A stretch of DNA of 64,000 nt from Xanthostigma xanthostigma (lineage: Eukaryota > Arthropoda > Insecta > Raphidioptera > Raphidiidae), in NCBI GenBank assembly GCA_963575645.1, contig OY754467.1, positions 23,085,001 to 23,149,000 on the forward strand, given 5' to 3'. Made by a program: the position numbers and the translations under genes. The notes under the pieces are model-generated. The model was given only the letters and a program-made list of their open reading frames with translations, was not told where the DNA came from and searched no databases. This document shows, piece after piece, positions 8,813-63,521 of the stretch (the stretch's first letter is position 1; each line of letters starts with the position of its first letter).

Positions 8813-8922
8813 AAGCAAATTTTTAAAGAAGTATGATTTCTTTGATCCAAAAAGCCACGGAAATTGCTCCTTACCTGCAAATACTTCATTATAAATTATC
8901 TGAGATCGTAAAGATGCCTTTA

Positions 8923-9958
8923 TAGTCCAAGAGACGGCTGCAGAAAATGTGTCGTCATATGGTGGACGAACGAAAAAATTAGAGATGATAGTTAAGACCA
9001 TAATTAAGAAAGATCGCTAAGGTTGCCTGCGAAAATCCTGCCGAAACAATGTTTTTTTAATTTGTTTATCAGTTAATAGACCAGTGAAGTTAGCTTTTGA
9101 CAAGGACAAAATTAATAATAGAAAACGAATGATGAGGAAGGGAAGAAACTGCCGTCAGAGATACAGAAACCAAAAATTCAAAAGCGTAAAAGGCCGGAGG
9201 GTTGTAGGGGGTGCATTTTAGGGGTCAAACGCGGTTTTTCGTTATTTCCGGCGAAAGTTGACCTCCAATCGAAAAATGTTGTATGGCAATGTTGTAGGTA
9301 TTAAAAGGATCTACAACTTTTATGAATATAACTTTTTCACATAACCTCAAAGATTCAAAGAAATATTGAAAAAACCGTGTTTTTTGTTTTTAATTTTTTT
9401 CTCCTGCAAATTACAGCTTATTTAGGACATAGAAAGGTAAGTCTCCTGAAATTTCATGAAAAAAAATCATTTTTGCAGGAGAAAAAAATTAAAAACGAAA
9501 AACACGGTTTTTCAATACTTCTTTGATTCTTTAAGGTTATGTGAAAAAGTTATATTCATAAAAGTTGTAGATCCTTTTAATACCTACAACATTGTCATAC
9601 AACATTTTTCGATTGGAGGTCAACTTTCGCCGGAAATAACGAAAAACCGCGTTTGACCCCTAAAATGCACCCTCCACAGCCCTCCGGCCTTTTACGCATT
9701 TGAATTTTTGGTTTCTGTATTTCTGACGGCAGTTTCTTCCCTTCCTTATCATTCGTTTTCTGTTATTAATTTTGTCCTTGTCAAAAGCTTACTTCACTGG
9801 TCTATTAACTGATAAACAAATTAAAAAAACATTGTTTTGGCAGGATTTTCGCAGGCAACCTTAGCGATCTTTCTTAATTATGGTCTTAACTATCATCTCT
9901 AATTTTTTCGTTCGTCCACCTTATGACGACACATTTTCTGCAGCCGTCTCTTGGACTA
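8923..9958. mobile_element. 1-kb palindromic foldback element
   Basis: The left arm (8923-9410) and right arm (9472-9958) are near-identical inverted copies of about 488 bp around a 61-bp spacer. The ends read TAGTCCAAGAGACGG and its complement. Both flanks carry TTA (8920-8922 and 9959-9961). A 3-bp TTA/TWA duplication suggests a PIF/Harbinger-type transposase acting in trans, but the TIR is not one I recognise, so the superfamily is open. The short frame at 9456-9656 lies inside the right arm and is not a gene. Confidence 0.72.
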
Positions 9959-9961
9959 TTA

Positions 9962-43476: not shown

Positions 43477-44030
43477 AAACGCTTTATATTAGCTTGGGTT
43501 GTAAGTAACTATGTATGTATGTATGTAACTAACTACCGTAACGGAATCTTTGAGCATAATTTTCACCAATTTCCCGAAGTCTGATTAATTTGAAACTTTG
43601 CATACGTATCAAGGACCGATGACAATGCAATAATTTGATAACAGTTTCCCATTATCCTTATTAGGACCCCCAGGATTAATAAATTCTTTTATAGATCCTC
43701 TGTAGTAAACGCTTTATTTTCACCAATTTCCCGAAGTCTGATTAATTTGAAACTTTGCATACGTATCAAGGACCGATGACAATGCAATAATTTGATAACA
43801 GTTTCCCATTATCCTTATTATTAAACGCTTTATATTAGTTTGGGTTGTAACTATGTATGTATGTCCGTAACGGAATCTTTGAGCATAATTTTCACCAATT
43901 TACCGAAGTCTGATTAATTTGAAACTTTGCATACGTATCAAGGACCGATGACAATGCAATAATTTGATAACAGTTTCCCATTATCCTTATTAGGACCCCC
44001 AGGATTAATAAATTCTTTTATAGATCCTCA
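43477..44030. repeat. three tandem copies of a ~210-bp repeat unit
   Basis: Units begin AAACGCTTTAT at 43477, 43707 and 43823. They share CCGAAGTCTGATTAATTTG, GCATACGTATCAAGG and CAGTTTCCCATTATCC blocks. The middle unit lacks the ATGTATGTATGT and AACGGAATC part. A fourth copy is at 47897-48118. In both places the unit ends in TTTATAGATCCTC and is followed at once by a foldback starting ACTAAAAAGTGAAAAATAAA, so unit and foldback travel together. Confidence 0.8.
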
Positions 44031-44041
44031 CTAAAAAGTGA

Positions 44042-44267
44042 AAAATAAAATATAGTTTAAAAAAAACTAAAAAACACGCTTTATATCGGACTAAAAAGTA
44101 AAAAATAATTGTTTTAAAATAAGCTTAAAAAGCGTTGGGCGCTCGATGTACGAAAATGTGGAACAAAGCGCCCCACGCTTTTTAAGCTTATTTTAAAACA
44201 ATTATTTTTTACTTTTTAGTCCGATATAAAGCGTGTTTTTTAGTTTTTTTTAAACTATATTTTATTT
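44042..44267. repeat. perfect foldback A (~100-bp arms)
   Basis: Arms 44042-44142 and 44168-44267 are complementary apart from a small bulge near the loop (GTTGGGC against GCCCCAC). The loop region is about 25 nt. Arms contain ACTAAAAAGTAAAAAATAA and AACACGCTTTATATCGG. A sister foldback is at 48131-48355. Confidence 0.8.
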
Positions 44268-44311
44268 AAATATAATTCATACAGTTATAGTTAGGTAATT
44301 TTGCTTTGAAG

Positions 44312-45350
44312 TAGTGATGTCGATTATCGTTACTTTTAAGTATTCGTTACTACTCGGTACTTTGGTATTAAGTAATCATTTCAACTACTTGTTACTTTGA
44401 TTACTTTGATTACTTATACTTAGGTTACATACGTAAAATGTAGTACGTCGTGTCTAATTAAATATAATAGGTAATCGTTTTTTATGCATGCGGCCGTGAG
44501 CTATCGTTTTTTAGGAAGTATGTGTTGCGAATGCGATGTAAAGCAAAACTGTACGAAAAAACGAACTTTTGTTATGTAAAAATTATTTATTTAAATAAAA
44601 AAAATAATCTAATATTTGTTTTAAATAAAAAACGAAACTTAACTTAAGATAAAAGGTAAGGTTCGCAGGAACTTAAGGCGATTAATTTGACTTATATCGG
44701 CTCGCTATACAATAATAAAACTCCCGAATAATCAGATAAAGTACCTAATCAATAGACTAAATTAATACAGTCCGAAATGCGAAACGGCCGAAACGCTAAT
44801 GAATATTCTTATACTCGCATAATAAAATAATCAATAGTAATCAATAATCAATAGTAATCATTGTAATCAATAATCAATAGTAATCGTTGTAATCAATAAT
44901 CAATAGTAATCATTGTAATCAATAATCAAAAGTAATCATTCAAGTAAAAGTAACGATTTACTTTTCGAATCGGTAATCGTTACTTCGGGTATTCTAAAGT
45001 AACGAGTAGTTTCGTATCGTATCGTTACTTTGTCGACATCTCTACTCCCGAATAATCAGATAAAGTACCTAATCAATAGACTAAATTAATACAGTCCGAA
45101 ATGCGAAACGGCCGAAACGCTAATGAATATTCTTATACTCGCATAATAAAATAATCAATAGTAATCAATAATCAATAGTAATCAATAATCAATAGTAATC
45201 AATAATCAATAGTAATCATTGTAATCAATAATCAAAAGTAATCATTCAAGTAAAAGTAACGATTTACTTTTCGAATCGGTAATCGTTACTTCGGGTATTC
45301 TAAAGTAACGAGTAGTTTCGTATCGTATCGTTACTTTGTCGACATCTCTA
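44312..45350. mobile_element. hAT-type non-autonomous transposon, 1039 bp, with duplicated right end
   Basis: It is flanked by an exact 8-bp direct repeat CTTTGAAG (44304-44311 and 45351-45358). The left end TAGTGATGTCGA and right end TCGACATCTCTA are inverted repeats with one mismatch in 12, fitting the hAT end pattern. The inside is full of GTTACTTT/AAAGTAACG and AATCAATAGTAATCA tandem words. There is no transposase frame. The right third is tandemly duplicated (next entry), so the element carries two right ends. Confidence 0.8.
44721..45350. repeat. tandem duplication of the hAT right portion
   Basis: 44721-45044 and 45045-45350 both start CTCCCGAATAATCAGATAAAG and end TCGACATCTCTA. They are nearly identical and differ mainly in the number of AATCAATAGTAATCATTGT-type units. 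Confidence 0.85.
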
Positions 45351-45358
45351 CTTTGAAG

Positions 45359-46092
45359 AACCAATTTATTTTGTGCATATTCTAAAAATAGGAAGTATAC
45401 CTATCTATTCCAACTAAAAACGACATTGCCCAAATCAATTGATAAATTGTGAGAGATTTATTGTCTGACTCAAGTTAATCAACTTTAATTGGGATTTCAT
45501 TTGGTGTACCTATATTTAAAGATGTTATTTTTATAACAATGACCTAAAATGAATATTTTCTGAAAGAATACAATTACCAGTTTTGGTTTTTTAAAACTGG
45601 TGCTATTCTGTATGGCTAATGTGAGATTTTTTGTCACTTTCTCTAACAAATTTAATATTAAAGTGAAAGAAATTTAACACAGCTTTTAATTTTTACATTG
45701 ATCATACAGAATAGCGACATAGGTGATGGTTATCAAACTTTTAGTTTAGTAAAAATTCTGGCATAAACTCACTTGGAAATTTAATAAAAAAACTAGTCAT
45801 GATTCATACTGTTGGGTGTAAGTAAAAAAAAATAACATTGAAGTCCCTGACAAAAGGTTACAGACGCACAGCAGACGCTTTAGCGTCCAATTAATGATAC
45901 TGCAATTAGAAGTGAATAGCACAATGCATGAATTTTATCTTAATTACTAAATTTTCCCTTTATAAATTGTATTGTTATCCAATAGATATATTGGTTTTAA
46001 ACTTGTTAAGACAATAAAAAACCTTTTAGTAAGCACCATTCTCAAAACTTCGTCCATCGAGGCTGATCAATAGCCCGTTTGATTATATTTTA
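45359..46092. other. AT-rich non-coding stretch
   Basis: Contains an imperfect inverted repeat around 45596-45720 (TGCTATTCTGTATG and CATACAGAATAGC-like ends). No gene seen. Confidence 0.45.
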
Positions 46093-46285
46093 CTAGTGGT
46101 CCCGCCCGGTTCGGTTTCGGAGATTATCGCGGCCAAAATTTTGACACGGGAATTTTATATATAGCCTTTCTCGATAAATGGGCTATCTAACGACATTTTT
46201 TTTCAATTCGAACCAGTGGTTCCTGAGATTAGCGCGTTCAACCAAACAAACAAATAAACTCTTCAGCTTTATATATTAATATAGA
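46093..46285 (-). mobile_element. non-autonomous Helitron-like repeat, copy 3 (shortened)
   Basis: On the minus strand it begins TCTATATTAATATATAAAGC and ends in ACCACTAG followed by T, with a CCGAACCGGGCGGG stretch before it. It keeps the AACGCGCTAATCTCAGGAAC and TTATCGAGAAAGG blocks but lacks the GTCCGTCCGAC middle part of the 35402-35748 copy. Confidence 0.62.
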
Positions 46286-47417
46286 CGAATGAAATAAGTT
46301 TTGAGAAGGATTAAAAAGGGTTTCTTAACTTGTAAACTATGAAAAAGTACAGCTCTGAAACACTGCATAGGGTTCTCTGCGTTAGGTAATTTATATATGC
46401 AACAAGTTCATAACGTCAACGTCATATGACGGGCTCTGTGACTTTAATGAAATACATTATCACCAATTAGAATCTTCTGCATTTGTTAACACATCTGTCT
46501 ACCGCTGTGTTTGTTCTATGTCATTTACTCATGTGTCGTTGGTCATCGACATTTCAACTTGGTGATTCCAATATTTCATTAATTGACGTACGAACATCAA
46601 ATTATACTTAACCCTCCATTAGGCGCGTGCATTCTACTCACGCGTATAGGCGCGTGGATTACAATACTAATCCGATTTATTTAGTTCCTGTTAGGCTTTA
46701 CAGAAGAAAAAAAAACATATACCTATACGTACAATATATGTTTTTTTTTATTGTATTTTATGTTTATTTATGTTTAATAGCACACAATACTATATTTAGA
46801 TATACATTTTGCCTTTTTTATTATGAAAAAATTAAAAGAGCTACAAGTGTTTTTTTCATGGCATCATTAGCAGGTTAACCAGAAACAGTTCCAAAACAAA
46901 CTAAAAAATAAAAATAACGAAACTGTTTTTTTTACGTTTTTTAATTTTATAGAATAAACATCTACTTAGACAAACTGATCAGTAAAACAAAATATAAACA
47001 AAAAAACACAAGCCAAATGAGGAGTAATTTTTATCCTGAGAAACATGCGATGTACACATCTCTCATTATGTTCTTTGCATGAATGTTTGCAAAAATTATA
47101 ACAATTTTTTCTTCCCGTTTTATTACAACTTCTCGAGCAAATGTATAAGCAACGACGATTGCAGTTTGCGGGAATATCGACTGGGGAGGAGTAAAATCTC
47201 TTTTAGTCCAAGTAGGTAGTGCGCTCTTGGCCGAATTTCTTTTAGTAAATGGGTGACATGTGTTCAATTTAGGGTTTTATTAGTTCGCAAGCAAACTTGT
47301 CAGACAGATCTTAAAACTTTGTCTTCAGGCGTTAATTCCAGCTACTTATTATAAGTATGTATAGCAAGTCGTAAAATATTACCATTGTCATCGGTTTGTT
47401 GTTCTCGATGCATTGTA
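46286..47417. other. AT-rich non-coding stretch
   Basis: Nothing recognised. The frame 47031-47267 (minus) has no identifiable domain. Confidence 0.45.
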
Positions 47418-47463
47418 TTTTTAACCGACTTCAACAAAAAGGAGGAGGTTCTGTGTTCGTCTG

Positions 47464-47494
<31 letters not shown>

Positions 47495-47754
47495 ATGTAT
47501 GTTCACCGATTTCTCCGTCAATTATGGACCGATTTTCAAATTTTTTTTTTATTCGAAAGAGTGCACTTCCGAGGTGGTCCCATCGGAACCAAGTCAGGAT
47601 CTGATGGTGGATCCCGGAGAAATCGAGGGAAACTCTCAAATTTCAAAGGCATGCATAATGTTTTTTTATGTATGTTCACCGATTTTTAGTGTTAGATTAA
47701 CACTAAAAAGAGAAAAATAAAATATTTTTAACAAAAAAATTGAACCGACTTCAA

Positions 47755-47895
47755 AAAAGGCACTAAAAAGTAAAAAATAATTGCGTATTGAAATGTTTTG
47801 GAGTCGGTGTAGTTCTCGGAATAGATTTCATTTTGACTGACACCGACTCCAAAACATTTCAATACGCAATTATTTTTTACTTTTTAGTGCCTTTT
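47755..47895. repeat. foldback C (~56-bp arms)
   Basis: Arms 47755-47810 and 47840-47895 are exact inverted copies around a 29-nt loop. They contain GGCACTAAAAAGTAAAAAAT and a GGAGTCGGTGT block unrelated to foldbacks A and B. Confidence 0.8.
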
Positions 47896-47896
47896 T

Positions 47897-48118
47897 AAAC
47901 GCTTTATATTAGTTTGGGTTGTAACTAACTAACTATGTATGTATGTATGCATGTAACGGAATCTTTGAGCATAATTTTCACCAATTTCCCGAAGTCTGAT
48001 TAATTTGAAACTTTGCATACGTATCAAGGACCGATGACAATGCAATAATTTGATAACAGTTTCCCATTATCCTTATTAGGACCCCCAGGATTAATAAATT
48101 CTTTTATAGATCCTCAAA
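47897..48118. repeat. fourth copy of the ~210-bp repeat unit
   Basis: It begins AAACGCTTTATATTAG and ends TTTATAGATCCTC, as in the 43477-44030 array. It sits between foldbacks C and B. Confidence 0.8.
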
Positions 48119-48130
48119 CTAAAAAGTGAA

Positions 48131-48355
48131 AAATAAAATATAGTTTAAAAAAAACTAAAAAACACGCTTTATATCGAACTAAAAAGTAAAAAATAATTTT
48201 TTTAAAATAAGCTTAAAAAGCGTTGGGCGCTCGATGTACGAAAATGTGGAACAAAGCGCCCCACGCTTTTTAAGCTTATTTTAAAAAAATTATTTTTTAC
48301 TTTTTAGTTCGATATAAAGCGTGTTTTTTAGTTTTTTTTAAACTATATTTTATTT
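48131..48355. repeat. perfect foldback B (sister of A)
   Basis: Same sequence as 44042-44267 except for at least two sites, changed on both arms so that pairing is kept: CGGACT/AGTCCG is CGAACT/AGTTCG here, and AATTGTTTT/AAAACAATT is AATTTTTTT/AAAAAAATT. Confidence 0.8.
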
Positions 48356-48397
48356 GAAGTCGGTTCAATTTTTTTGTTAAAAATATTTTATTCAAAC

Positions 48398-52318: not shown

Positions 52319-52402
52319 GTAAGTACTGCTTAACAAAAATATTAGGAGCACTGTGGTTTGAATCTAATAAAAAATAGAGAATAGTTACTTCTTACCACAA
52401 CA

Positions 52403-52479
52403 AGTTTATTAGTGGATGTACATTTCGAGAGCTATGCTCTCATCTTCAGCAATACACTTCTTCAGCAATACACTAAACT
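52403..52479 (-). ncRNA. hammerhead ribozyme with 16-nt stem-I insertion
   Basis: Core CTGAAGA, stem II GAGAGC/GCTCTC (loop ATA), GAAA, palindromic stem III ATGTACAT, cleavage after C. A 16-nt direct duplication (TTCTTCAGCAATACAC on the plus strand) separates the outer stem-I strand AGTTTA from the core and duplicates the start of the core itself. It may therefore fold less well than the other copies. Confidence 0.7.
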
Positions 52480-52483
52480 GTTT

Positions 52484-52544
52484 AGTTTAGTGTATTGCTG
52501 AAGATGAGAGTATAGCTCTCGAAATGTACATCCACTAATAGACT
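52484..52544 (+). ncRNA. hammerhead ribozyme (PLE family 1)
   Basis: CTGAAGA (52498-52504), stem II GAGAG/CTCTC with loop TATAG, GAAA, palindromic stem III ATGTACAT, cleavage expected after C52532. The outer stem I pairs AGTTTA with TAGACT through one G-U pair. Confidence 0.78.
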
Positions 52545-52592
52545 TGTTGTGGTAAGAAGTAACTATTCTCTATTTTTTATAAGTACTGCTTA

Positions 52593-53575
52593 ATTATATT
52601 ATGTTGTATTTCGTTAGGCTCATTATATTAGATAAAAAAAAATTAATTGTTTAGATCTGTAAAATGTTCACAGAGTTCAAATAGAATAAATATACAGAAT
52701 AAATTTAAAATTGCAAAAATTTTTTGAGAATAATTGTTGCGGTTAGGGAAAATGACAAAAATAAAATAAAATCTAAAATCTGTGGTTTCAGTATGAGAAA
52801 TTAATTTAATTTATTTTTTTTTTGTTATGCTTCAATTAAATAACAGTTAATTTATCCCAACGTTCGGTTAAAAATACCTTCAACGACAAAATATTTATAA
52901 AAATAGGTAGCCATAATAGAGAAGGCATACATATTTACAATCTACAATTTCAAAATTTAAAAAGCAAAATATAAAGAGACTAGTTTATTTACAACGACGA
53001 TGTTGCTAGGACTTTCCAGTGCTATTGTCGTTGTCTGTGGGTGATTTATGGAGAAGGACAGTCGACCTTTAAACAATTGAAAAAAGAGTGAACGGTGTAG
53101 GATATTAATATACCTACACATAAAAAATAATTAAAAACATCGGCGCATCATTTAATTCAGATTTTGGTTGATAGCATTATTTTAATTATCCCTATTATAC
53201 CAAGAATGGTTTAGGTAGCGTGGGTTTGCAATGACAGTAATTGGATGTATTATTTTGCAAACGAAGTGCCACTTGTTGAATGTCAAGTGGTAGACAGATT
53301 GGCGAAACTGCTTGGTCAAAAGATGATGTGTAACAGTATAATTCTTATACAACTTGAAATTGCAAATTAGATAATTTTAACATTTTCACTTGTCTATCAT
53401 CCGACCGAAATTATTAATTATATTAGTATTCTAGTTTATCTTAACAAATGTGAGAAAGTAATAAATAATTTAAATCGTTAAATATCAGAACACATTACGT
53501 AATTTTGTTATTCAAGTAGGTGTTTTTAAAAGTAGTAATTTTAATAGATTTTAGGTCAACATCTTTTTCACTTAC
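52593..53575. other. AT-rich non-coding stretch
   Basis: No gene or bounded repeat recognised. Confidence 0.45.
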
Positions 53576-57600: not shown

Positions 57601-57685
57601 TATAATCCTGTACTAACAAAAATATTAAGAGCACTGTGGTTTGAATCTAATAAAAAATAGAGAATAGTTACTTCTTACCACAACA

Positions 57686-57746
57686 AGTTTATTAGTGGAT
57701 GTACATTTCGAGAGCTATGCTCTCATCTTCAGCAATACACTAAACT
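57686..57746 (-). ncRNA. hammerhead ribozyme, 3' pLTR of full PLE copy
   Basis: A 61-nt fold on the minus strand: outer stem I AGTTTA/TAAACT, internal loop, inner pairs G-C and U-A, then CTGAAGA, stem II GAGAGC/GCTCTC with loop ATA, GAAA, stem III ATGTACAT, and cleavage expected between 57698 and 57697. Every conserved core base is present. It lies in the 3' untranslated part, about 230 nt past the stop codon of the RT gene. Confidence 0.85.
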
Positions 57747-57978
57747 GAGTTCATTAACAAAAATCTTTACATTATATAGCAATTACAGGTATAAATTAAA
57801 ATAATAATACAGGTACTAAAAATTAACCATTGACTTATGAAAAGTCAGGTAACGTCAATCTGGTATACCCAATATATACCTGAAACCATGTCAACCAAGC
57901 GCTGGTCCGTGTCAATGAAAATTCTGTAAAAAACAAAGGAAACAACAAAACCAAAAAACAAAAATTAACGAACCTCGG

Positions 57979-60327
57979 CTACAAAAGATCGAATAATGCT
58001 GAAAAAGGTATAGGGCCATTATCTGAATTTAAAAGTTTCTGTGTGTCACTCTTGGCTATGTATATACTTTCAAAACTATCCAACTGCTGTTTATTATGTA
58101 CTGTTTTTAGCAAACTTAAGTTATTTATACTAATGTCATGGTTAGTTTCTAAAATATGGTTAGCTACGCTGGATTTGTCCGGTCTACAAAATTTTATATG
58201 GGAGAAGTGTTCTTTCCATCTGGTAGCTATTTGACGTCGGGTTTGTCCTATGTATAATTTGTCACACGTACCGCAATTAATTTTGTATATACCAGACTTT
58301 TCTAAAGTGGGTGTGCTGTCTTTCGGGTTGCCTAGGTGTTTACTAATACTATTTTCATTTTTAAAGGCTTTAATTAAATTAACGTTTTTGAATATATTAT
58401 CTAAGCCTTTAGTAAGAATGGGATCGTATGTTAGGCCAATATATTTTAATGGGGGATTATCTGTAATTAGTGTCGTACTATTTCTAAAATTTAACTTTAC
58501 TTTTTTCTTTTTGAGAATATTCAAAACCATATCTTTAGAATAACCGTTTAATTCAGCTATATTAATTATATTAAGTAATTCTTGATCAAAACGATGCTTG
58601 TTAAGAGGAATAGTTAACAGTCGATGTATCATACTTTGGAAGGTCGCTTGTTTGTGTATTAGGGGGTGATTAGAATGGTTCATAATATATCTGTTATTGT
58701 TCGTCGGTTTTCTATAAATGTCAAATTCTAATGAGTCTATTTTTTTGTGGATCATGAGGTCTAAAAAAGGTATGCTATTGTTGGTTTCAATTTCATGAGT
58801 GAATTTAATGGATGGATATCGACTGTTGAGATCATCAATGAAGCTATTAATATCGTACTTACTAGTATCGAAGATGGCAAAAATATCATCAACGTACCTA
58901 AACCAAACGCGGGGGAAATATTTAAGGTCGTTTTTAATTTCTGATTCTAAGTTACACATAAATAAGTTCGCAATAAAGGGGGAAAGACAATTACCCATAG
59001 CCGTACCAGAGTGTTGTTTATAAAACTTACCGTTGAATTGAAAAAAGTTATTGTACATGCAAGTTTCAGTTAATTTTATGTATTCATTAATACTATCAAG
59101 GTCAATATTATTTAACAAAAGAAAGTTTTTGAGGTGTTTAAGCGTCACCTCTATAGGGATACTTGGGAAGAGAACACAGACATCAAAAGAAACTAATAGT
59201 TCGCTACTTTTTAATTTTATGTCTTTGATCTTGGTTACTAAATCTAAGCTGTTTTTAATTGAAAACTGATCATGGATTTGCTGCATTTTACTAAATTCCG
59301 TAGTTAACCATTTAGATAAAATATAGGTAGGGGAGTCGATGTTATTAACGATCGGTCTCATTAATTTGCCCGGTTTATGGATTTTAGGTAAACAGTACAT
59401 TTTGGGTAAAACTGGATTTGAGGTCACGAATTTTGATACGTCTTTTTTCCGTATCAATAAAGGGCATTGTTTTAAACAATTTTTAACATTGTTAACGAAT
59501 TTTGAAAGTGGGTTCTTGGGAATGTTGATGTACGGTCCTTCTTGGAGTAATTTATTACCTCTATTAAAGTAGTCTTGTTTATCCAAAATCACAACTGTGT
59601 TTCCTTTGTCAGCTTTTAAGTAGAAGCAATCTTTATTTTTAAGGTTTTTCAAAATGGCTAAGTTTTTATTCAAATTTTCCGGTTGTTTGATTTTGGACAA
59701 ATTGTCGGTCAGTCGTAGTTTACAAGCGTTTCTAATATAATTTTTATTTTCATCATTTAGATGTTTTATACCGGTTTCAATATCAGCAATTATGTTAATT
59801 AATGTGGATTTCGCAGGGATGGAATGTTTTAAACCATTTGACAGGAGACTAATTTCTTCGGGATTAAATGCTACCGAGGATTCGTTCTTTACAAAGTTAT
59901 TAATTGAGGGGCTACTATCGGTGTTTTTAAAATTAACTGGTTTTAATTTTTTGAACTTTTTTCTAAGACGGTGTATTTTTGACTCATACTTATTAAAATT
60001 TACTTCATTAACTTTTTGTAAGAATTTATCCCAATCTGATTTTGCCATTAAATTACTTATTTTTAAGTGTAATTGATATAATTCTAATTCCAATTTAGCT
60101 AATTTACCATGTAAAAATTGAATTTCTAAATTGAGCCATTTGGTTTTTGCAGCATCTTTCGCCTTTTTAACGCGTTCGTTAGTAATTTTGTTTTTAAACT
60201 CTGAGATGAACTTAGGGAAAACATTGGATTTTTTACAGTTTATTAAAAACTTAATATCAGCCCGTAAGAATTTTACTCTAAGGTTGTACCTAAAAAATAA
60301 ATTAAGCTCATTTGGCCGAAAAGCCAT
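57979..60327 (-). CDS. Penelope-like reverse transcriptase / GIY-YIG endonuclease, intact
   Basis: A 782-residue protein expected to copy the element's RNA and to nick target DNA. The N-terminal 1-150 is Lys-rich and probably coiled coil. A PLE-type pre-RT block holds KADKGNTVVILDK (238-250). The RT domain follows with LPKIHKPG (313-320), RPIV (324-327), SFD with catalytic Asp382, GTAMG (441-445), YVDD (478-481) and IPFLDL (519-524). A linker leads to the endonuclease: GIY (679-681), YIG (692-694), R697/R698, E706, a CxxC pair (C685, C688) with H724 and H730, and E753. All catalytic residues are present and length is normal for a PLE. The ATG is preceded by a leader of about 89 nt if the transcript starts at the cleavage site of the upstream hammerhead (60416). 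The order RT then GIY-YIG separates it from LINEs and LTR elements. Confidence 0.95.
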   Translation of the reverse strand: MAFRPNELNLFFRYNLRVKFLRADIKFLINCKKSNVFPKFISEFKNKITNERVKKAKDAAKTKWLNLEIQFLHGKLAKLELELYQLHLKISNLMAKSDWDKFLQKVNEVNFNKYESKIHRLRKKFKKLKPVNFKNTDSSPSINNFVKNESSVAFNPEEISLLSNGLKHSIPAKSTLINIIADIETGIKHLNDENKNYIRNACKLRLTDNLSKIKQPENLNKNLAILKNLKNKDCFYLKADKGNTVVILDKQDYFNRGNKLLQEGPYINIPKNPLSKFVNNVKNCLKQCPLLIRKKDVSKFVTSNPVLPKMYCLPKIHKPGKLMRPIVNNIDSPTYILSKWLTTEFSKMQQIHDQFSIKNSLDLVTKIKDIKLKSSELLVSFDVCVLFPSIPIEVTLKHLKNFLLLNNIDLDSINEYIKLTETCMYNNFFQFNGKFYKQHSGTAMGNCLSPFIANLFMCNLESEIKNDLKYFPRVWFRYVDDIFAIFDTSKYDINSFIDDLNSRYPSIKFTHEIETNNSIPFLDLMIHKKIDSLEFDIYRKPTNNNRYIMNHSNHPLIHKQATFQSMIHRLLTIPLNKHRFDQELLNIINIAELNGYSKDMVLNILKKKKVKLNFRNSTTLITDNPPLKYIGLTYDPILTKGLDNIFKNVNLIKAFKNENSISKHLGNPKDSTPTLEKSGIYKINCGTCDKLYIGQTRRQIATRWKEHFSHIKFCRPDKSSVANHILETNHDISINNLSLLKTVHNKQQLDSFESIYIAKSDTQKLLNSDNGPIPFSALFDLL

Positions 60328-60404
60328 CTTAATAACAAAAATATTAAGAGCACTGTGGTTTGAATCTAATAAAAAATAGAGAATAGTTACTTCTTACCAC
60401 AACA

Positions 60405-60465
60405 AGTTTATTAGTGGATGTACATTTCGAGAGCTATGCTCTCATCTTCAGCAATACACTAAACT
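60405..60465 (-). ncRNA. hammerhead ribozyme, 5' side of full PLE copy
   Basis: Same sequence and fold as 57686-57746. It belongs to the 3' pLTR of the truncated upstream unit but acts as the 5' boundary of the full copy. Cleavage between 60417 and 60416 would leave an 89-nt leader before the RT start codon. The distance to the equivalent site downstream is 2719 nt, equal to the tandem period. Confidence 0.85.
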
Positions 60466-60697
60466 GAGTTCATTAACAAAAATCTTTACATTATATAGCA
60501 ATTACAGGTATAAATTAAAATAATAATACAGGTACTAAAAATTAACCATTGACTTATGAAAAGTCAGGTAACGTCAATCTGGTATACCCAATATATACCT
60601 GAAACCATGTCAACCAAGCGCTGGTCCGTGTCAATGAAAATTCTGTAAAAAACAAAGGAAACAACAAAACCAAAAAACAAAAATTAACGAACCTCGG

Positions 60698-61993
60698 CTA
60701 CAAAAGATCGAATAATGCTGAAAAAGGTATAGGGCCATTATCTGAATTTAAAAGTTTCTGTGTGTCACTCTTGGCTATGTATATACTTTCAAAACTATCC
60801 AACTGCTGTTTATTATGTACTGTTTTTAGCAAACTTAAGTTATTTATACTAATGTCATGGTTAGTTTCTAAAATATGGTTAGCTACGCTGGATTTGTCCG
60901 GTCTACAAAATTTTATATGGGAGAAGTGTTCTTTCCATCTGGTAGCTATTTGACGTCGGGTTTGTCCTATGTATAATTTGTCACACGTACCGCAATTAAT
61001 TTTGTATATACCAGACTTTTCTAAAGTGGGTGTGCTGTCTTTCGGGTTGCCTAGGTGTTTACTAATACTATTTTCATTTTTAAAGGCTTTAATTAAATTA
61101 ACGTTTTTGAATATATTATCTAAGCCTTTAGTAAGAATGGGATCGTATGTTAGGCCAATATATTTTAATGGGGGATTATCTGTAATTAGTGTCGTACTAT
61201 TTCTAAAATTTAACTTTACTTTTTTCTTTTTGAGAATATTCAAAACCATATCTTTAGAATAACCGTTTAATTCAGCTATATTAATTATATTAAGTAATTC
61301 TTGATCAAAACGATGCTTGTTAAGAGGAATAGTTAACAGTCGATGTATCATACTTTGGAAGGTCGCTTGTTTGTGTATTAGGGGGTGATTAGAATGGTTC
61401 ATAATATATCTGTTATTGTTCGTCGGTTTTCTATAAATGTCAAATTCTAATGAGTCTATTTTTTTGTGGATCATGAGGTCTAAAAAAGGTATGCTATTGT
61501 TGGTTTCAATTTCATGAGTGAATTTAATGGATGGATATCGACTGTTGAGATCATCAATGAAGCTATTAATATCGTACTTACTAGTATCGAAGATGGCAAA
61601 AATATCATCAACGTACCTAAACCAAACGCGGGGGAAATATTTAAGGTCGTTTTTAATTTCTGATTCTAAGTTACACATAAATAAGTTCGCAATAAAGGGG
61701 GAAAGACAATTACCCATAGCCGTACCAGAGTGTTGTTTATAAAACTTACCGTTGAATTGAAAAAAGTTATTGTACATGCAAGTTTCAGTTAATTTTATGT
61801 ATTCATTAATACTATCAAGGTCAATATTATTTAACAAAAGAAAGTTTTTGAGGTGTTTAAGCGTCACCTCTATAGGGATACTTGGGAAGAGAACACAGAC
61901 ATCAAAAGAAACTAATAGTTCGCTACTTTTTAATTTTAAAATTAAAAAGTAGCGAACTATTAGTTTCTTTTGATGTCTGTGTTCTCTTCCCAA
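60698..61993 (-). pseudogene. 5'-truncated PLE RT/endonuclease, tandem copy
   Basis: It encodes residues 371-782 of the intact protein without change (60698-61936). The N-terminal half and the start of the RT domain are missing. The first 19 codons of the open frame (MGREHRHQ...) are read through the inversion joint from the opposite copy and are not PLE protein. YVDD and the whole GIY-YIG domain remain, but the Lys-rich region and RT fingers are gone, so it should not work as an RT. Its main role may be to supply the upstream pLTR and ribozyme for unit 1. Confidence 0.9.
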
Positions 61994-63177
61994 GTATCCC
62001 TATAGAGGTGACGCTTAAACACCTCAAAAACTTTCTTTTGTTAAATAATATTGACCTTGATAGTATTAATGAATACATAAAATTAACTGAAACTTGCATG
62101 TACAATAACTTTTTTCAATTCAACGGTAAGTTTTATAAACAACACTCTGGTACGGCTATGGGTAATTGTCTTTCCCCCTTTATTGCGAACTTATTTATGT
62201 GTAACTTAGAATCAGAAATTAAAAACGACCTTAAATATTTCCCCCGCGTTTGGTTTAGGTACGTTGATGATATTTTTGCCATCTTCGATACTAGTAAGTA
62301 CGATATTAATAGCTTCATTGATGATCTCAACAGTCGATATCCATCCATTAAATTCACTCATGAAATTGAAACCAACAATAGCATACCTTTTTTAGACCTC
62401 ATGATCCACAAAAAAATAGACTCATTAGAATTTGACATTTATAGAAAACCGACGAACAATAACAGATATATTATGAACCATTCTAATCACCCCCTAATAC
62501 ACAAACAAGCGACCTTCCAAAGTATGATACATCGACTGTTAACTATTCCTCTTAACAAGCATCGTTTTGATCAAGAATTACTTAATATAATTAATATAGC
62601 TGAATTAAACGGTTATTCTAAAGATATGGTTTTGAATATTCTCAAAAAGAAAAAAGTAAAGTTAAATTTTAGAAATAGTACGACACTAATTACAGATAAT
62701 CCCCCATTAAAATATATTGGCCTAACATACGATCCCATTCTTACTAAAGGCTTAGATAATATATTCAAAAACGTTAATTTAATTAAAGCCTTTAAAAATG
62801 AAAATAGTATTAGTAAACACCTAGGCAACCCGAAAGACAGCACACCCACTTTAGAAAAGTCTGGTATATACAAAATTAATTGCGGTACGTGTGACAAATT
62901 ATACATAGGACAAACCCGACGTCAAATAGCTACCAGATGGAAAGAACACTTCTCCCATATAAAATTTTGTAGACCGGACAAATCCAGCGTAGCTAACCAT
63001 ATTTTAGAAACTAACCATGACATTAGTATAAATAACTTAAGTTTGCTAAAAACAGTACATAATAAACAGCAGTTGGATAGTTTTGAAAGTATATACATAG
63101 CCAAGAGTGACACACAGAAACTTTTAAATTCAGATAATGGCCCTATACCTTTTTCAGCATTATTCGATCTTTTGTAG
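61882..63177 (+). pseudogene. 5'-truncated PLE RT/endonuclease, inverted copy
   Basis: A mirror image of the 60698-61993 copy on the other strand, giving an identical open frame. PLE protein begins right after the inversion centre (61937/61938) at residue 371 and runs to the normal stop at 63177. The two copies overlap in sequence across the joint and form inverted arms of about 1.57 kb with no difference seen in the coding part. Confidence 0.9.
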
Positions 63178-63409
63178 CCGAGGTTCGTTAATTTTTGTTT
63201 TTTGGTTTTGTTGTTTCCTTTGTTTTTTACAGAATTTTCATTGACACGGACCAGCGCTTGGTTGACATGGTTTCAGGTATATATTGGGTATACCAGATTG
63301 ACGTTACCTGACTTTTCATAAGTCAATGGTTAATTTTTAGTACCTGTATTATTATTTTAATTTATACCTGTAATTGCTATATAATGTAAAGATTTTTGTT
63401 AATGAACTC

Positions 63410-63470
63410 AGTTTAGTGTATTGCTGAAGATGAGAGCATAGCTCTCGAAATGTACATCCACTAATAAACT
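63410..63470 (+). ncRNA. hammerhead ribozyme, inverted PLE copy
   Basis: Plus-strand equivalent of the other two: CTGAAGA (63424-63430), stem II GAGAGC/GCTCTC, GAAA, stem III ATGTACAT and outer stem I AGTTTA (63410-63415)/TAAACT (63465-63470). Cleavage is expected after C63458. Confidence 0.85.
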
Positions 63471-63521
63471 TGTTGTGGTAAGAAGTAACTATTCTCTATT
63501 TTTTATTATAATCCTGTACTA

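Follow-up and report, generated by a model that had tools for sequence, protein, structure and literature searches.

The 64,000-nucleotide (nt) stretch of the Xanthostigma xanthostigma genome analysed here (contig OY754467.1, positions 23,085,001 to 23,149,000 of the forward strand; hereafter the window) carries an insertion at 57601-63521, and the analysis supports its having arisen recently, in a single event, from a Penelope-like element (PLE) that encodes an endonuclease, an already known kind of element. The best explanation of its anatomy, and one that we consider quite probable, is two-ended priming, in which both 3′ ends exposed by cutting of the target would prime reverse transcription of the element's RNA. 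With somewhat less assurance, though still on the favourable side, we propose that PLE integration is normally two-ended with a fixed division of labour, each target strand priming at a site of its own, reverse transcriptase (RT) start site 1 or 2, and that early run-off at the RNA 5′ end produces hundreds of short inverted-repeat insertions resembling miniature inverted-repeat transposable elements (MITEs).

Architecture of the window insertion

The insertion comprises the following parts, in which open reading frame is abbreviated as ORF, target-site duplication as TSD and pseudo-long terminal repeat as pLTR.

57601-57615, no strand: left TSD, TATAATCCTGTACTA, 15 bp, perfect repeat pair
57614-60332, minus strand: full-length unit of 2719 nt, with the ORF and a 3′ region with the pLTR end
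57614-57648, minus strand: 'tail', unit positions 2685-2719, at the outer end of the direct arm and missing from the outer end of the inverted arm
60333-61938, minus strand: tandem unit, 5′-truncated, 1606 nt (unit positions 1114-2719), the upstream 'pLTR'
61937-63508, plus strand: inverted truncated arm, unit positions 1114-2685, its tail-less end being RT start site 2
63507-63521, no strand: right TSD, 15 bp, identical to the left one

The anatomy and the TSDs are direct observations. TATAATCCTGTACTA occurred exactly twice in the whole window, both times as a TSD copy, and the element ends are uncertain by 2-3 nt, as a few bases are common to the TSD. The left, outer end of the full unit is the tail end and corresponds to RT start site 1; the last ~34 nt of the direct arms, i.e. 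the tail, are absent from the inverted arm, which meets the tandem unit head to head at 61937/61938, the two overlapping by 2 nt. Both arms break at unit position 1114. The tandem copies 57614-59219 and 60333-61938 were identical at 1606/1606 nt without any mismatch, and 60367-61937 and 61938-63508 form the arms of a 1571-nt palindrome with zero spacer and no mismatch, the aligned inverted arms being identical at 1572/1572 nt. The DNA itself, beyond the protein, is thus identical between the three units.

These results bear out the initial annotation in that a perfect 15-bp repeat pair flanks all three units, that one TSD pair and 100% identical units indicate a recent, single-event insertion, and that the shared coding parts are the same, now at the DNA level. 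Its description of the insertion as composite holds for the anatomy; the oddity it implied does not, since the partial tandem 'pLTR', the inverted arm and the one-sided 'tail' have been published for endonuclease-bearing PLEs (PMC3846280, PMC8969392 and PMC11167929). Rather than three units, the insertion is better described as two complementary DNA (cDNA) arms, one of 4.3 kb (1.6 units) and one of 1.6 kb.

The ~3.2 kb of arm comparison without difference gave a 95% upper bound of ~0.1% on divergence. Insect mutation rates lie near 3e-9 per site and generation, a rate that may not be the host's, and at this rate the window insertion would be younger than roughly 160,000 generations, gene conversion aside. 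Zero arm mismatches were also found, over shorter overlaps, in loci L011, L013, L020, L021 and L022, so the window insertion is not uniquely young.

A tailed and a tail-less end in each of 57 two-armed insertions

In the own genome of the window (623 Mb, 28 contigs), a tail end (unit 2717-2719) stood opposite a tail-less end (unit 2681-2693) in each of the 57 examined two-armed insertions whose outer ends could both be read, a pairing that was observed directly; site 2 accordingly lies ~34 nt upstream of site 1 on the RNA. The 3′ tail on one end only, a PLE trait, was therefore present in 57/57, and the further PLE traits of a partial tandem giving pLTRs, a frequent inverted arm and a short TSD were found as well. 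The 57 consist of 11 insertions from the window and protein-found loci, 18 from a DNA search and 28 from pattern sites on one contig (C1). The set of 11 includes, besides the main insertion and nine protein-found two-armed loci, a second insertion of the family in the window:

52331-52583, no strand: short, two-armed insertion, tail arm left, tail-less arm right
52320-52333 and 52580-52593: its TSD, 14 bp, TAAGTACTGCTTAA

The arms of this insertion differ at 3/95 aligned nt, and it is probably older than the main one.

Searching the genome with the element's protein listed 59 matches, for which the best 58 of 1561 first-look candidates were scored. Twenty family loci were fetched, namely nine two-armed ones with readable ends, L010 with a decayed second arm, and ten one-armed ones (L009, L012, L014, L016, L017, L019, L024-L026 and L028; nine tail-less, one tailed). 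In 11/11 of the window and protein set, the outer end of one arm fell at unit 2717-2719 and that of its partner within 2682-2691. A DNA query made of the last 147 nt listed 60 matches (best 40 of 1578 candidates scored) and gave 20 short loci, of which 18 had two readable ends, tailed and tail-less ends being paired in 18/18; the second outer end was unreadable in L046 and L048. As the 147-nt query contains the tail and is biased toward tailed arms, a 31-nt pLTR pattern upstream of the tail was chosen to remove the bias, and it had 961 exact matches genome-wide against 0 for the reversed control. Among the 100 pattern sites listed, all on C1 and sorted by eye, 74 formed 37 head-to-head pairs, 25 were unpaired, one was an extra copy beside a pair, and no tail-to-tail pair was seen. 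Taken in order from the start of this list, 20 pairs and 15 unpaired sites made up a sample of 35, of which 28 were two-armed, all 28 pairing a tailed with a tail-less end. L071, L072, L075, L077, L080, L084 and L085 also stand outside the 57. L034 was counted by BLAST, though missed by the TSD pattern script, and L051 entered the count as 2689/2719, although the final segment listed for it (2566-2592) overlaps the tail end and its TSD was not found.

TSDs of 10-16 nt (median 13) were identified in 28/30 loci tested by a script that required both end types and so provides no test of the pairing. The outer flanks of 43/46 short two-armed insertions shared a word of at least 10 nt, versus 3.7% of shuffled flank pairs, some of them self-pairs; the three below 10 nt were L036, L051 and L057. 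TSDs of at least 10 nt were also present in 6/10 one-armed protein-found copies, and four of these six (L012, L014, L019 and L024) keep 5-10 nt of tail cDNA beside the TSD, remnants that partly overlap the arm. Many 'one-armed' insertions with a TSD thus look as if priming had taken place at both ends there too, the tail arm having stayed very short.

Two-ended priming and its alternatives

Two-ended priming would proceed as follows. The RNA would begin at a TATA/initiator (Inr) promoter within the upstream pLTR, and the RT-GIY-YIG protein would cut both target strands with a ~13-nt stagger, the order of the cuts being conjectural, whereupon both exposed 3′ ends would prime reverse transcription. 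Priming by one 3′ end at site 1, which is U-rich and just before the ORF, would give the tail arm; priming by the second 3′ end at site 2, which lies ~34 nt further upstream, would give the tail-less arm. Each cDNA would extend until it reached the template end or came off the template. The cDNA 3′ ends would then be joined, in a manner we can only propose, head to head via a 0-9 nt overlap or short filler, and gap filling would create the TSD. In the window, the tail arm would have run 4.3 kb, through the whole unit and into the next, so that this copy carries the intact gene plus a putative upstream promoter.

This scheme fits the unequal arms, the TSD and published in vitro work on the anole, in which the purified PLE protein cut and extended both strands and used two adjacent start sites bounding the 'tail' (PMC11167929). 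The tail arm was shorter than the other arm in L013, L015, L020 and L022, and shorter by at least 10 nt in 11/46 short insertions; each arm then has sequence that the other lacks, which excludes simple fold-back there. The 46 short copies displayed 36 combinations of head, head and gap, indicating that arm pairs mostly form anew, with centre overlaps of up to 9 nt and some centres holding filler that reads as several jumps.

Several observations weigh against two-ended priming. The anole start sites were apparently alike on top and bottom strands (PMC11167929), as opposed to the strict pairing here. Both window arms stop at 1114, which would be rare for independent cDNAs unless these had a common RNA 5′ end, and in the window and protein set the two heads lay at most 10 nt apart in 4/11 (permutation p 0.0004) and at most 2 nt apart in 2/11 (p 0.0095). 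L016 and L026 have TSDs but no tail remnant, no 10-nt TSD was found at one-armed L009, L017, L025 and L028, and 7/35 C1 sites were one-armed or unclear. The pairing, moreover, comes from one family in one genome, with a small part of the 961 pattern sites typed. Given the excess of near mirrors, template sharing or fold-back does occur in some insertions, and the mirror at unit 1114 may reflect two cDNAs from the same 5′-broken RNA, or fold-back in that event.

Fold-back self-priming, by which target-primed cDNA would fold at its own 3′ end and copy itself into a head-to-head arm, was initially preferred as the usual origin of inverted arms, given that the main insertion and 52331-52583 are both mirrored; the unequal arms of the own-genome copies ruled it out in that role. 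The exact mirror at 1114 in the window, the near mirrors in L018, L027 and L023, the mirrored short insertions, a 5-bp stem with a 3-nt loop that the L027 junction allows (drawn by eye), the palindromes reported at inverted junctions (PMC3846280) and locus L049, which belongs to a different PLE family and is 100% palindromic around a 1-nt spacer, all speak for it. Fold-back alone, however, cannot yield arms with mutually absent sequence, as found in the four loci and 11 short copies above, and gives no reason for the second arm to end at start site 2 in 57/57; for the mirrored short copies, run-off where both cDNAs reached a common RNA 5′ end is also an explanation. We thus hold it to be unlikely as the explanation. 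L011, once taken as a further case against fold-back, was withdrawn, its long arm holding a second, tandem piece with a tail.

It is more doubtful still that the composite was inherited, i.e. that an older composite locus was copied whole as one long RNA, with its tandem, inverted arm and asymmetric ends. Although 14/46 short insertions share their head/head/gap combination with another one, eight of them being 2582/2582/-9, the number of different combinations among the 46 argues otherwise, as do the different junctions of the larger insertions. The break at unit 1114 was absent from all 20 fetched protein-found loci, and a 30-mer adjoining the window centre had 11 genome matches, with a facing pair, 20 nt apart, only in the window (exact matches). 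Least credible of all is an assembly or read chimera, such as a fold-back read. Some libraries typically yield artefacts in the form of perfect palindromes with zero spacer, and the window palindrome is of this form; an artefact would not give a mirror that ends at 63508 beside the TSD with differing flanks beyond it, and the same anatomy recurs with its own TSD at 52331-52583 and at dozens of loci with different flanks. Two-ended priming remains our preferred reading.

The RT-endonuclease gene

57979-60327, minus strand: RT-endonuclease ORF, 782 aa, without internal stop
58822-59382, minus strand: RVT_1 match (Pfam, E 2.9e-11), residues 316-502, with YVDD within
58042-58296, minus strand: GIY-YIG match (Pfam, E 1.1e-05), residues 678-762, with CxxC between GIY and YIG

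The ORF is stop-free by direct observation and, in agreement with the gene reported in the initial annotation, matches RVT_1 (43.9 bits versus a Pfam cut-off of 29.6) and GIY-YIG (26 bits versus 22.6). RT followed by a C-terminal GIY-YIG in one ORF is a trait of endonuclease-positive PLEs. The YVDD, GIY and YIG motifs and CxxC are visible in the 782-aa translation. The element is presumably active at present. GIY-YIG was the sole endonuclease match at E 1 in the Pfam search of the protein. A long interspersed nuclear element (LINE) or other non-LTR identity was considered and rejected, there being no match to an apurinic-type (APE) or restriction-like (RLE) endonuclease and element 3′ ends lying on both sides. 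Among solved structures, the protein had weak matches to a group II maturase RT (E 0.019) and to I-TevI (E 0.15); no relative was confirmed in the viral and prokaryotic contigs searched, and a single-sequence AlphaFold model (AF2) had a predicted local distance difference test score (pLDDT) of 34.9 and was unusable.

Arm heads, putative promoter and hammerhead-like motif

60492-60497, minus strand: TATATA, putative TATA box, unit 2555-2560, in the tandem unit
60463-60467, minus strand: Inr-like TCAGT, unit 2585-2589, with the putative transcription start at its A, 60465 (unit 2587)
60406-60464, minus strand (also 57687-57745, minus, and 63411-63469, plus): hammerhead-like motif CUGAAGA..GAAA..AUC

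Arm heads of the short insertions clustered at unit 2582-2590 (58/92). TATATA begins ~30 nt upstream of the A of TCAGT, and the two together look like a TATA/Inr promoter, the heads like points where copying ran off the 5′ end of the RNA. The putative start at 60465 on the minus strand is 138 nt upstream of the intact ORF, from which we infer that the truncated tandem unit would supply its promoter; the outermost pLTRs (57746, minus; 63410, plus) face outward into the flanks. The apparent heads at 2582 arise because of a quasi-palindrome, AACT-N-AGTT, in which two run-off ends meet with one extra base, and for this single extra base at mirrored centres, cap copying and one more templated base are not separable.

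Start sites 1 and 2 are rich in U (AUUUUUUAUU and AUUUUUGUUA). A small predicted hairpin that extends to the start codon contains site 1 (z-score -1.85). Downstream of the putative transcription start, the hammerhead-like motif follows the order CUGAAGA, U, helix II (GAGAGC/GCUCUC), GAAA, a tiny loop and AUC, between the flanks UUAGUG/CACUAA, and its copy at 52484-52583 has a C-to-U change in helix II that retains a G-U pair. An Rfam search with the motif gave no match, even at E 10. In its minimum-energy fold, helix II and the outer stem persist but part of the would-be core is paired, and the folding energy is not unusual (z -1.51 for 60 nt and -0.32 for 136 nt).

Family copies and other repeats

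The genome-wide search proposed in the initial annotation returned copies of the window family as well as other PLE families. Among the 59 matches listed, 31 (by our count) belonged to the window family with 83-100% identity, several being pieces of one insertion, and the window copy was the only full-length, stop-free one; two further near-full-length copies carry stops and the rest are truncated. The other 28 matches listed were of other PLE families with 29-37% identity, 23 of them without a stop in the matched stretch and eight with stop-free open frames of 741-844 aa. The earlier statement that intact PLEs are far rarer than relics consequently applies to the window family and fails for the genome.

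Among the pattern sites listed, most sit in short head-to-head inverted pairs resembling MITEs. Judged from their sequences, such pairs read as PLE 5′-end run-off products, not MITEs.

Inverted repeats were confirmed in two loci of other PLE families. L049:921-5947 (~35% protein identity) is a perfect palindrome of 2513 nt with a 1-nt spacer and sits in a 165-bp tandem satellite; in L050:1410-8607, of a further family, tandem and inverted arms are both 99.8-99.9% identical. An insert of ~1.2 kb, inverted-repeat-like by eye, lies within a PLE copy of the window family (L019:1592-2799). Elsewhere in the window, 8922-9959 is an inverted repeat with 478-nt arms, 95% alike and spaced by 82 nt, and 43523-48358 holds related repeats at 43.5-44.3 kb and 47.9-48.4 kb, ~4.1 kb apart, which are 88-98% alike and contain 101-nt hairpins.

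Meaning and comparison with known elements

Comparison of the window insertion with dozens of family copies from its own genome suggests that these elements are copied in at both ends of a chromosome break, each end having its own RNA start point. If this is true, a tailed end would face a tail-less one in every complete insertion. The strict two-site pairing makes the two-ended model directly testable with purified protein. This young family, in which one copy keeps an intact gene and the pLTR pattern has 961 exact matches, is a natural record of single insertion events. It also offers a possible origin for one class of short inverted-repeat elements, which annotation could mistake for DNA-transposon MITEs.

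The Penelope element of Drosophila virilis is of the same class and has tandem or inverted terminal repeats, the likeness being one of layout. In the PLE literature searched, whose coverage is incomplete, strict pairing of the start sites across many insertions was not found, and we make no claim of priority.

PAc, the Penelope/Poseidon-type PLE of Anolis carolinensis, resembles the window element in having RT and a C-terminal GIY-YIG in one ORF, pLTRs arranged in tandem and a tail bounded by a pair of neighbouring RT start sites; the core strings of the hammerhead-like motif also follow the layout of the printed PAc RNA, CUGANGA-U-helix II-GAAA (PMC11167929). The PAc tail, however, lies ~110 nt inside the ORF, whereas that of the window element is just upstream of the ATG; the start sites are in an AC-rich stem-loop in PAc and U-rich here; and the two sites are strictly paired here, one per end. 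Pen2a of Adineta vaga and related Penelope families likewise flank their ORF with direct pLTRs on both sides and have an inverted pLTR in addition (PMC3846280), and the Pen2a group is described with a 9-bp TSD and a 31-bp tail on one inverted pLTR, its arms measuring 181-218 bp versus 1.6 kb in the window (PMC3846280). For the A. vaga elements, self-priming on an antisense template was proposed (PMC3846280), whereas the own-genome data presented here favour two-ended priming.

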